Source of the DNA: Micromonospora sp. HM5-17
Lineage (GTDB): Bacteria; Actinomycetota; Actinomycetes; Mycobacteriales; Micromonosporaceae
Length of the DNA stretch: 64,000 nucleotides
NCBI RefSeq assembly: GCF_003762835.1
Contig: NZ_RJWA01000005.1
Location: 248,001-312,000, forward strand
Reading direction: 5' to 3'
Positions 35,828 to 41,780 of this stretch are shown here, in pieces (the first letter of the stretch is position 1; every line of letters starts with the position of its first letter). The position numbers were made by a program, and so were the translations under genes. Below the pieces are notes generated by a model. The model had not been told where the DNA came from. It saw nothing but the letters and a program-made list of their open reading frames with translations, and made no database searches.

Positions 35828-38279
<2,452 letters not shown>

Positions 38280-39279: not shown

Positions 39280-40467
39280 TCAGTCGAGCAGGGCGGTGAC
39301 GGTGCCGGCGGCGACCGTACGGCCGCCCTCACGGACGGCGAAGCCGAGGCCGACGTCCATGGCGACCGGCTTGCCGAGGTTGACCGTCAGGGTCACCGTG
39401 TCGCCGGGGTTGACCTGCGGCAGGTCGCCGAGGTCGACCGCGCCGACCACGTCGGTGGTCCGGAAGAAGAACTGCGGCCGGTAGTTGGCGTGGAACGGCG
39501 TCCGCCGCCCACCCTCGGCGGTGGTCAGGGCGTAGAGCTGGGCGGTGAACCGCCGGTGCGGCGTCACCGTGCCCGGCGCCGCCACCACCTGCCCCCGCTG
39601 CACCTGGTCGCGCTTGACCCCGCGCAGCAGGATGGCGGCGTTGTCACCGGCCTGCGCCGACTCCAGCGAGCGGCCGAAGGTCTCCAGCCCGATGGCGACG
39701 GTACCGAGCGTCGGGGCGAGTCCGACCACCTCGACCGGTTCGCCGGCGCGCAGCACGCCCCGCTCCACCGCGCCGGTCACCACCGTTCCGCGCCCGGATA
39801 TGGTCAGCACGTTCTCGACGGGCATCAGGAACGGCTGGTCGAGCAGGCGCGGCGGCACCGGGATGTACCGGTCCACGGCGTCGAGCAGGTCGGCGACCGA
39901 CTGCACCCAGCGTGGGTCGCCCTCCAGGGCCCGCAGCGCGGAGACCCGCACCACCGGCACCTCGTCGCCGGGGAAGCCGTACTCGCTGACCAGCTCCCGC
40001 ACCTCCAGCTCGACCAGGTCGAGCAGTTCGGGGTCCTCCACCGCGTCGGCCTTGTTCAGCGCCACCACGAGGTACGGCACCCCGACCCGCTGGGCGAGCA
40101 GTACGTGCTCGCGGGTCTGCGGCATTGCCCCGTCGAGGGCGGAGACGACCAGGATCGCCCCGTCGACCTGCGCCGCTCCCGTGATCATGTTCTTCACGTA
40201 GTCGGCGTGGCCCGGCATGTCGACGTGCGCGTAGTGCCGGGTCGCGGTCTCGTACTCGACGTGGGCGATGGTGATGGTGATGCCGCGGGCGATCTCCTCC
40301 GGCGCGCGGTCGATGCCGTCGAACGCGACGAACCGGTTGACCGCCGGGTCCCGGTCGGCGAGCACCTTGGTGATCGCGGCCGTGAGGGTGGTCTTGCCGT
40401 GGTCGACGTGCCCCATCGTGCCGATGTTCAGGTGGGGCTTGTTCCTGACGAACTGGCTCTTGGCCAT
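39280..40467 (-). CDS. tuf: Divergent second elongation factor Tu (EF-Tu paralogue)
   Basis: 395 residues. G motifs are intact: GHVDHGKT (19-26), RGITI (61-65), DMPGH (83-87, ordinary EF-Tu has DCPGH), NKAD (138-141) and SAL. Domains II and III are complete. The sequence is clearly less conserved than housekeeping EF-Tu, and the gene stands alone, not after rpsL-rpsG-fusA. By eye alignment residues Arg127, Ala233 and Ala278 correspond to E. coli Gln124, Arg230 and Gly275, sites known from kirromycin, pulvomycin and GE2270A resistance. This fits the Streptomyces EF-Tu3 type, which is inhibitor resistant. ATG 40467 with GAGGA upstream. Divergent from a beta-lactamase gene. Confidence 0.93.
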
Positions 40468-40826
40468 GGCTCTGTCTGTCCTCAATGGATAGTCGTGGCT
40501 GGCGAACGACGAGCGCGGGCGGGTGCCACACCGCAATCGAGAGAAACCGCGCCAGAACCGCGCACCGGTGCGCGCGCACCGAACAGGGGGCGGCACCGGG
40601 ATGGGCCACCCTCCTCCGTGGGTTCTGCTGGGGCGGGAGGAGGGTCAGCCTCGCGCGCCGGTATCCAGCCGAGCCATCGCCAGGGACACGGCGGTGGGGC
40701 CCAGCAGGAGGACCCCTGCGGGCCACGCCGAACCGGCCGTGCCAAACATGGCGCTCACGCTAGCGCCACACCCGGGGCACCGCGACCGATATTTCGCGCC
40801 CCCCGCGCGTACGAGAGGATCGCCGC
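40468..40826. other. Divergent region between the second tuf and beta-lactamase
   Basis: 359 bases. It should hold the tuf leader, but I found no clear promoter for it. The only likely coding item is the small frame at 40645-40749 on the minus strand. A region with CCACCCTCCTCC and GGGAGGAGGGT could fold upstream of tuf. Confidence 0.4.
40645..40749 (-). CDS. Candidate 34-residue membrane microprotein
   Basis: Translation from ATG 40749 gives a short hydrophobic peptide: N-terminus MFGTAGSAWP, one helix AGVLLLGPTAVSLAMA and a charged end RLDTGARG. A -10 element TAGCGT (40757-40762, minus strand) lies exactly 7 bases before the ATG, the spacing of leaderless actinobacterial genes. This supports real expression, though a frame this short can arise by chance. 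It lies upstream of the EF-Tu paralogue on the same strand. Confidence 0.42.
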   Translation of the reverse strand: MFGTAGSAWPAGVLLLGPTAVSLAMARLDTGARG

Positions 40827-41780
40827 ATGCCACTCCACCGTCGGGCCGGCGCCGTCGGACGCGCCATCCTGGTGGCCACCGCCGCGCTGGCCCTCGCACC
40901 ACTCGGCTCCTGCTCCATGGGCGACCCGCCGGACCGGGGCGGGCCGGCCTCGGCCGTTCCACCGGCACCGACCACGGCGCCGGCACCGACCACGCCGGCG
41001 ACCAGCCCCGAGTTCGGCCGGCTCGAGTCGAGGTTCGACGCGCGGCTCGGCGTCTACGCGGTCGACACCGGCACCGGCCGGACCGTCGAGTACCGCGCCG
41101 ACGAGCGGTTCGGCTACGCGTCGACGTTCAAGGCCCTGGCCGCCGCCGCGCTGCTGGACGCCACCACGTCGGCCGAGCTCGACCGGGTGGTCCGCTACAC
41201 CGAGGCGGACCTCCTGGCGCACGCGCCGATCACGAGGCAACGGGTGCGCACCGGCATGACGCTGCGCGAACTCGCCGAGGCGGCGGTGCGGTACAGCGAC
41301 AACACCGCGGCCAACCTGATCCTGGACCGGCTCGGCGGTCCGGACGGCTTTGAACGGGCCCTACGGGACCTCGGCGACCGGGTCACCAACCCGGAGCGCC
41401 GCGAACCCGGGCTCAACGACGTGCGGCCGGGCGACACCCGGGACACCAGCTCGCCCCGGGCGCTCGCGACCGACCTGCGGGCGTACGTCCTCGGCGACGC
41501 CCTCGCCGCCGAGGACCGTGACCTGCTGGTCGACTGGCTCCGGCGGAACACCACCGGCGACCGGCTGATCCGGGCCGGCGTCCCGGCGGGCTGGACCGTC
41601 GGGGACAAGACCGGCTCCGGTTCCTACGGCACCCGCAACGACATCGCCGTGGTGTGGCCGCCCGACGGCGCGCCCATCGTGCTCGCCGTCATGTCCCGGC
41701 GGGACGAGCGGCACGCCACGTACGACGACGCGCTGATCGCGGCCGCGACGAGGGCGGTGATCGCCGTGCTGCGTCCGTAG
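40827..41780 (+). CDS. bla: Class A beta-lactamase
   Basis: 317 residues. Signal peptide with a possible lipobox (LGSC, Cys29) and a Pro/Thr-rich linker. All active-site elements of class A enzymes are present: STFK (Ser99, Lys102), SDN (157-159), omega-loop Glu in EPGLN (Glu193) and KTG (261-263). It opens beta-lactam rings outside the membrane. ATG start with GAGAGG 8 bases upstream. Divergent from the EF-Tu paralogue; no regulator of the BlaI or AmpR type is nearby. The spectrum cannot be read from sequence alone. Confidence 0.95.

Follow-up and report, generated by a model that had tools for sequence, protein, structure and literature searches.

The window, by which we mean the whole 64,000-nt stretch of DNA analysed, holds an ORF at 39280-40467 on the minus strand that encodes an intact EF-Tu of 395 aa. 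The earlier note had called it a second EF-Tu, and this identification stands: the protein scores 599 bits against TIGR00485 (NCBIfam; cut-off 522), and PF00009, PF03144 and PF03143 all match, one for each of its three domains. We call it the spare EF-Tu and its gene tuf3. Upstream lies a leader with a promoter-like block, a short upstream ORF (uORF) and two sets of complementary strands; beyond it, a class A beta-lactamase gene faces the spare gene, as had been described. The features along the window are:

36864-38270, minus strand: class II DAHP synthase near tuf3 (neighbour test)
39280-40467, minus strand: spare EF-Tu of tuf3/actEF-Tu type, 395 aa (alignment and profile match); within it, the clade-typical changes D216N, F218L, M260T and R262G in E. 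coli numbering (alignment)
40548-40564, minus strand: terminator-like stem-loop with a T-rich tail, its loop holding the stem 2 partner
40553-40559, minus strand: stem 2, downstream strand, GGTTCTG, also inside the loop of the terminator-like hairpin
40608-40617, minus strand: stem 1, 3' arm, GGAGGAGGGT
40621-40627, minus strand: stem 2, loop strand, CAGAACC
40636-40645, minus strand: stem 1, 5' arm, ACCCTCCTCC, starting from the A of the uORF stop codon
40645-40749, minus strand: uORF of 34 codons, MFGTAGSAWPAGVLLLGPTAVSLAMARLDTGARG, ending in CGA-GGC-UGA-C, its AUG 7 nt after the -10 box
40757-40794, minus strand: WblC/WhiB7-like promoter, AAATAT, 3 nt (CGG), TCGCGG (-35), 17 nt, TAGCGT (-10) (consensus comparison)
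40827-41780, plus strand: class A beta-lactamase (NF033103, 323 bits against 200), a divergent neighbour outside the system

Three substitutions at antibiotic-resistance positions had been claimed for the spare: Q124R, R230A and G275A, each at an offset of +3. Alignment by MAFFT with tufA of E. coli K-12 (NC_000913.3) bears them out: at E. coli Q124, R230 and G275 the window's protein has R (residue 127), A (233) and A (278). Only two EF-Tu matches occur in the window's own genome, and the housekeeping copy (L001) keeps Q, R and G at these sites; the two proteins are 65.3% identical over 395 columns (66% by the search tool).

The protein belongs to actEF-Tu/EF-Tu3 (tuf3), a subfamily already known from actinomycetes, to which it adds a new member. 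The actEF-Tu group, whose studied member is the EF-Tu3 of Streptomyces, was described by Atkinson in 2015 (PMC4342817), and Streptomyces EF-Tu3 is reported to be resistant to EF-Tu inhibitors (PMC4342817, PMC12309360, PMC6804068). In a maximum-likelihood tree of 60 proteins, the 35 spare copies lie on one side of a branch with support of 100/100, present in 100% of 200 bootstrap trees, and this clade includes named Streptomyces, Micromonospora, Actinoplanes, Dactylosporangium and Asanoa copies. Comparison with Streptomyces second EF-Tu copies, one of the checks proposed for this gene, thus places them in the same clade (100/100); the named Streptomyces rows are S. noursei, S. rimosus, S. lavendofoliae and S. 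albidoflavus, the tuf3 of S. coelicolor and S. ramocissimus not being among them. With Streptomyces EF-Tu3 (tuf3, SCO1321) the window's protein shares, besides the clade, a changed R230 and the substitutions G275A, D216N and R262G. The window comes from a Plantactinospora relative, with P. endophytica and P. alkalitolerans as the nearest named relatives. From the residues and the family, we infer that the window's spare EF-Tu would be drug-insensitive.

The spare is scattered in its distribution. Our first EF-Tu search covered 41 genomes, the window's own and 40 others; a copy 77-94% identical to the window's was found in 11 of the 40, including five of the six other genomes of the genus. Two further genomes (G011 and G037) had partial spare copies at 71-72% identity, and the remaining EF-Tu matches were 63-66% identical. 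A class sample of 246 genomes extended the range of the spare to four more family groups (f31, f32, f33 and f41). The two f41 copies nest within the Actinoplanes group of the tree, which suggests horizontal transfer, and gene and leader may have moved together into these genomes. One of the f41 loci (L034) has a full leader, and the other (L035) a divergent one. Eight comparisons gave dN/dS values of 0.14-0.21, so the spare EF-Tu is maintained under purifying selection.

We surveyed the residues of 77 distinct spares (69-100% identical to the window's) and 56 other EF-Tu (up to 66%), a grouping made on overall identity. G275A is present in 77 of 77 spares and in none of the 56 others, and D216N in 75 of 77 and in none; R262G is likewise invariant among the spares, the other proteins having R (54), K (1) or H (1). 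At position 230 the spares have A (60), K (14) or V (3) and the others R (43) or K (13), so that A and V are found only in spares and K is not. Q124R is the trait of a subclade (38 of 77 spares, with Q in 35 and H in 4; among the other EF-Tu, Q in 55 and N in 1). Y160H occurs in 34 spares and in none of the 56; since the other EF-Tu also have Q (12), N (2) and A (1) here, only histidine is telling. The kirromycin site has thereby changed in two ways: of the 38 proteins with R124, 37 have Y160, and of the 35 with Q124, 30 have H160. The Plantactinospora lineage has Q124R and keeps Y160, while most Streptomyces spare copies keep Q124 and carry Y160H in its place. None of the 77 spares departs from wild type at the further known resistance positions G257, G316, Q329, T334, A375 and E378; L120 is kept in 74 with V in the other three, and R333, which is R in the window, is H in 10.

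Nine sites differ between the groups when 90% is required in both. Four of the nine fall in three domain-2 segments that make up 30 of 393 residues (hypergeometric p = 0.003) and that we take to be the GE2270A/aa-tRNA surface; in a smaller first sample, counted by eye, six of 17 differing sites lay in drug/aa-tRNA segments. The substitutions are not due to chance.

Upstream of the gene, the promoter-like block can be compared with the published WblC consensus (GAAAWY, 3 nt, TKGMNN at -35, 16-19 nt, TANNNT; PMC7157823). The -10 box is an exact match, and the upstream box and the -35 are looser. The same source lists tuf3 of S. coelicolor among the WblC targets and places both WblC and HrdB at its promoter. 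The strict published pattern occurs neither in the window nor in any of the 73 regions examined upstream of spares and of about a dozen other EF-Tu genes. A relaxed pattern, written after inspection, fits 65 of 69 leaders, each with an in-frame uORF ATG following 6-7 nt later, and 0 of 3,450 shuffles, failing in L077, L078, L082 and L085; without the frame requirement it is found before 73 of 77 spares, but also in five of 37 housekeeping upstream regions. Among seven WhiB matches in the window's genome, one (L220) is WblC-like in having the RGRPRK motif, which we take as the mark of WblC. We infer that the window's tuf3 promoter would be under WblC control.

The uORF ATG follows the -10 box by 6 nt in 10 leaders and by 7 nt in 55. 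In S. coelicolor, transcripts of the WblC regulon mostly start 7-8 nt past the -10 box (PMC7157823), so the uORF is probably leaderless. Its ATG is in frame with the stop in the conserved tail in 65 of 65 leaders, over 22-75 codons and 24 different lengths; the second codon is TTC in 54 of the 65 and the stop is TGAC in all. The other two frames across the same stretch are often open as well (48 and 51 of 65). Judged by its conservation, the uORF appears to be translated. CGA as the last-but-one codon formed part of our search pattern, and nine of 78 rows lack it. Inspected by eye, eight of the nine leaders without CGA-NNN-stop (one a duplicate) have a similar, partly imperfect hairpin, and L074 has a terminator. 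CGA is absent from both the spare and the housekeeping tuf of the window's genome. In P. alkalitolerans (L064) the uORF is longer through in-frame ASHQPNL repeat units, with the frame kept. We also considered readthrough from the uORF into tuf3 and dropped it, because in some leaders the number of nucleotides between the uORF stop and the ATG cannot be divided by three.

Stem 1 begins at the uORF stop codon and is 10-12 bp long in most leaders. CGA-NNN-stop joined to a stem of at least 10 bp occurs in 68 of 78 spare upstream regions, in 0 of 1,560 shuffled regions (20 shuffles of all 78) and in 0 of 37 housekeeping upstream regions (0 of 38 on recount). Leader counts leave out the duplicates L002, L003, L063 and L064, some of them also L071, and L094 throughout. 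Two-sided changes are seen at three of nine pairs of stem 1, and the stem is part of the predicted minimum-energy fold in nine of ten leaders, L034 being the exception. It has no U-tract, and the ten leaders folded showed no antiterminator conserved across families. At the same place as stem 1, L074 (Micromonospora sp. CPCC 205371) has a canonical terminator instead, CCCCG-TTTCTT-CGGGG-TTTT.

The loop of stem 1 can pair in turn with a partner that mostly lies 7-51 nt beyond the stem, forming stem 2 and, with it, a possible pseudoknot. We put 70 of 76 leaders in register (six were not), L074 standing outside this comparison as it has no stem-1 loop. The 70 yield 13 distinct helices, all of them fully paired when G-U is included; with the partners shuffled among leaders, 72% are paired on average and 89% at most. 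Since each partner is the best match within a search window, comparison across lineages is the fairer control, and here the leaders' own partners score 20.1 against 14.8 for those of other lineages (76 leaders); in 52 of these the own partner outscores 95% of the others. When the downstream sequence is shuffled as a control, the scores are 20.1 to 15.7, with 25 of 76 leaders singly at 0.05 or below. The leader is thus conserved, and both stems covary.

A covariance model of stem 1 and the tail (R1, 55 sequences) finds the tuf3 leader in the window's own genome at 1.7e-12, with the next match at 0.09. Across 197 class genomes, 45 have a match at E 0.05 or better. Twenty matches are below 1e-5; 19 of these lie just before tuf3 and one before a decayed tuf3, many of the leaders being among the model rows. 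A search of 250 genomes of the family gave matches in 104 at 0.001. Of the best 29 loci besides the window, all but one are directly followed by tuf3, and a script scored both promoter and uORF as present in 27 of these 28. Sixteen of these best 29 elements differ from every row of the model and 13 are identical to one. Among strong model matches, therefore, the leader is tied near-exclusively to tuf3. Streptomyces tuf3 loci have the same leader and a WblC-like promoter. The tuf3 carrier G164 (L035), whose stem is divergent, is absent among the R1 matches listed. Simple motifs are less specific: the window's genome has 49 CGARGCTGACC sites, and when 30 of them were checked together with L143 (the tuf3 leader) and L144, a stem of 10 was found only in the tuf3 leader; a looser tail pattern occurs in 97 places.

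Two loci depart from the usual arrangement. In L202 (G128, Streptomyces-like) the leader precedes a shortened, divergent EF-Tu-like ORF, with no second full EF-Tu match, and this is apparently a decaying tuf3 copy that still has its leader. In L246 (G481, of the same family as the window) a tuf3-type promoter, uORF and pseudoknot leader stand before an unrelated ORF, which could be due to rearrangement, gene loss or misassembly.

It is the leader that makes up the newer part of these observations: a conserved stretch of control RNA that combines a tiny gene with a knot-like fold, and of which we found no earlier description. Rfam models gave a best E value of 0.45, far below the gathering score, for window positions 40400-41000, and none at the gathering score for the leaders L104, L111, L065 and L080. 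The literature searched contained no description of a tuf3 leader; the primary tuf3 papers (van Wezel 1995, Olsthoorn-Tieleman 2007) lie outside it and may mention one.

Taking protein and leader together, we favour, at a probability of roughly 0.7, the reading that tuf3 encodes a stress EF-Tu with a remodelled domain-2 pocket, induced when translation is impaired through a WblC-type promoter and a uORF/hairpin leader. D216N, F218L, R230A, M260T, R262G and G275A would remodel the pocket that binds the 3' end of aa-tRNA, GE2270A and pulvomycin, Q124R would be an addition at the kirromycin site in the window's lineage, and the spare would keep translation running while the housekeeping EF-Tu is blocked. 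WblC would turn the promoter on when translation is inhibited. Ribosomes would then start on the probably leaderless uORF and end at CGA-NNN-UGA-C, where the hairpin or pseudoknot begins, and their progress along the uORF would decide whether stem 1 and stem 2 form and whether RNA polymerase reads on. The leader would in this way act as a ribosome-mediated, translation-sensing transcription attenuator.

Two versions can be envisaged. In one, the terminator would need full translation of the uORF, as proposed for lmrC and reviewed for wblC; in the other, a ribosome paused at CGA-NNN-UGA would cover the 5' arm and so allow readthrough. The canonical terminator at the same place in L074 favours attenuation and hints at a terminator function, whereas the lack of a U-tract in stem 1 and of a conserved antiterminator in the ten folded leaders counts against a settled direction of the switch. 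Precedents are at hand. The whiB7/wblC attenuator, reviewed in PMC11550727, has a uORF and a terminator in the leader of a gene that responds to translation inhibitors, as we propose for tuf3. The likeness is one of description, and the tuf3 leader differs in a hairpin that starts right at the stop of the uORF and in a loop that pairs with sequence further downstream. For lmrC of Streptomyces lincolnensis, the authors infer that terminator formation needs translation of uORF2 (PMC8546547). There, as with the putative terminator of the tuf3 leader, the uORF overlaps the terminator, although lmrC is a different type of gene (ABCF) and the likeness is again one of description.

The conserved loop core and the possible H-type pseudoknot without a U-tract could instead be features of a binding site. 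In that case the leader would be a protein- or ribosome-binding mRNA element, serving autoregulation by EF-Tu or a ribosomal protein, or protection of the mRNA. We think this unlikely, if the most serious of the alternatives: stem 1 starts right at the stop codon of a uORF that is itself conserved, L074 has a canonical terminator where stem 1 would stand, and a reported Streptomyces attenuator, that of lmrC, has a uORF overlapping its terminator (PMC8546547).

A second alternative concerns the protein. The spare might be a specialised carrier of aminoacyl-tRNA, for example mischarged or starvation-time tRNAs, with D216N, F218L, M260T, R262G and G275A shifting its choice and drug insensitivity as a by-product. 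These positions presumably line the pocket for the amino acid and A76 (ternary complex structures, pocket engineering), and D216N is found in 75 and R262G in all of the 77 spares, while none of the 56 other EF-Tu has either change. However, H66, E215, T228, E259 and R288 are kept in all 77 spares and N273 in 74, and Streptomyces EF-Tu3 is less active yet resistant to GE2270A and is expressed under stress (PMC12309360), which suggests that it still serves general translation. We regard a specialised carrier as improbable.

The earlier note had read the spare as an inhibitor-insensitive EF-Tu for self-protection or defence. A second EF-Tu of the EF-Tu3 family, with Streptomyces members reported to be inhibitor-resistant, is upheld; self-protection of a producer against its own elfamycin or thiopeptide is not, and we consider it very unlikely. 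The substitutions do sit at known resistance sites, and the producer S. ramocissimus has an EF-Tu3 (cited in PMC4342817). Yet the spare is present in five of the six other genomes of the genus and over several families, and S. coelicolor, which makes no kirromycin, has a resistant EF-Tu3 (PMC6804068). The proposed search for a thiopeptide cluster was likewise negative: a search for YcaO cyclodehydratase gave 0 matches in the window's genome (96% complete, 51 contigs), so there is no thiopeptide pathway, and a LanB-type C-terminal domain gave one partial match. The tuf3 neighbours tested were DAHP synthase, the beta-lactamase and one protein that matches no Pfam family, none of them biosynthetic. 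DAHP synthase is also near tuf3 in several relatives (L063, L006, L079, L011 and L012). A link between beta-lactamase and spare EF-Tu was rejected, as the neighbour is not conserved (beside the EF-Tu gene in 0 of 69 other loci tested, 14 of these short).

Nor does EF-Tu3 behave as a simple shield. In PMC12309360, two of three tuf3 overexpression constructs in S. coelicolor conferred no appreciable GE2270A resistance and the third at least fourfold, with slow growth; this result counts against that role. Planobispora rosea EF-Tu is, like EF-Tu3, naturally resistant to GE2270A, but it is the producer's own, and P. rosea, unlike S. coelicolor, is described as having no tuf3 (same source). A general stress EF-Tu is the better reading. 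It is a point against it that tuf3 of S. ramocissimus was reportedly transcribed during exponential growth, without tracking the production of kirromycin. In work of Olsthoorn-Tieleman in 2007, EF-Tu1 mixed with EF-Tu3 is said to stay sensitive to kirromycin, so Q124R may protect little. That the spare is a decaying or neutral duplicate with chance substitutions has next to no probability, for all that it is absent from many relatives and decayed in one Streptomyces-like copy (L202), given dN/dS of 0.14-0.21 in eight comparisons and the invariance of G275A and R262G in 77 of 77 spares.

Within the preferred reading of a stress EF-Tu under attenuation control, it is tempting to speculate that the leader serves specifically to sense how well EF-Tu works. 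Having initiated on the leaderless uORF, a 70S ribosome would advance to the rare CGA codon and to UGA-C as the supply of ternary complex allows, and the pseudoknot would convert transit or stalling into tuf3 expression. UGA-C is a weak stop context. We hold this idea only tentatively, and would sooner bet against it than on it. If it is true, one RNA cassette couples a failing EF-Tu to its own resistant replacement in several actinomycete families. Such an RNA element, which may report EF-Tu activity, would help to explain both how elongation inhibitors are sensed and what EF-Tu3 is for. More broadly, the data suggest that a multidrug-insensitive EF-Tu, with two alternative changes at the kirromycin site among the spares, is a common stress tool of actinomycetes and not the private shield of a producer. 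A duplicated, divergent EF-Tu serves as a self-resistance signal under the ARTS criteria for genome mining (PMC9290621), and mining of this type should allow for the actEF-Tu/EF-Tu3 clade.

Some residues otherwise typical of spares recur outside the clade. M17, M81 and G363 are found in 12 each of the 56 non-spare EF-Tu, and C81M was for this reason dropped as a diagnostic residue (M81 in 12 of 56). The 13 non-spare EF-Tu with K230 (L118, L119, L122, L124, L126, L129, L132, L133, L136, L139, L140, L142 and L125) are mostly from Acidimicrobiia-type MAGs, L125 being Nakamurella lactea. Two of them, L118 and L122, branch beside the spare clade in the tree, a position that may hint at the origin of the spare.
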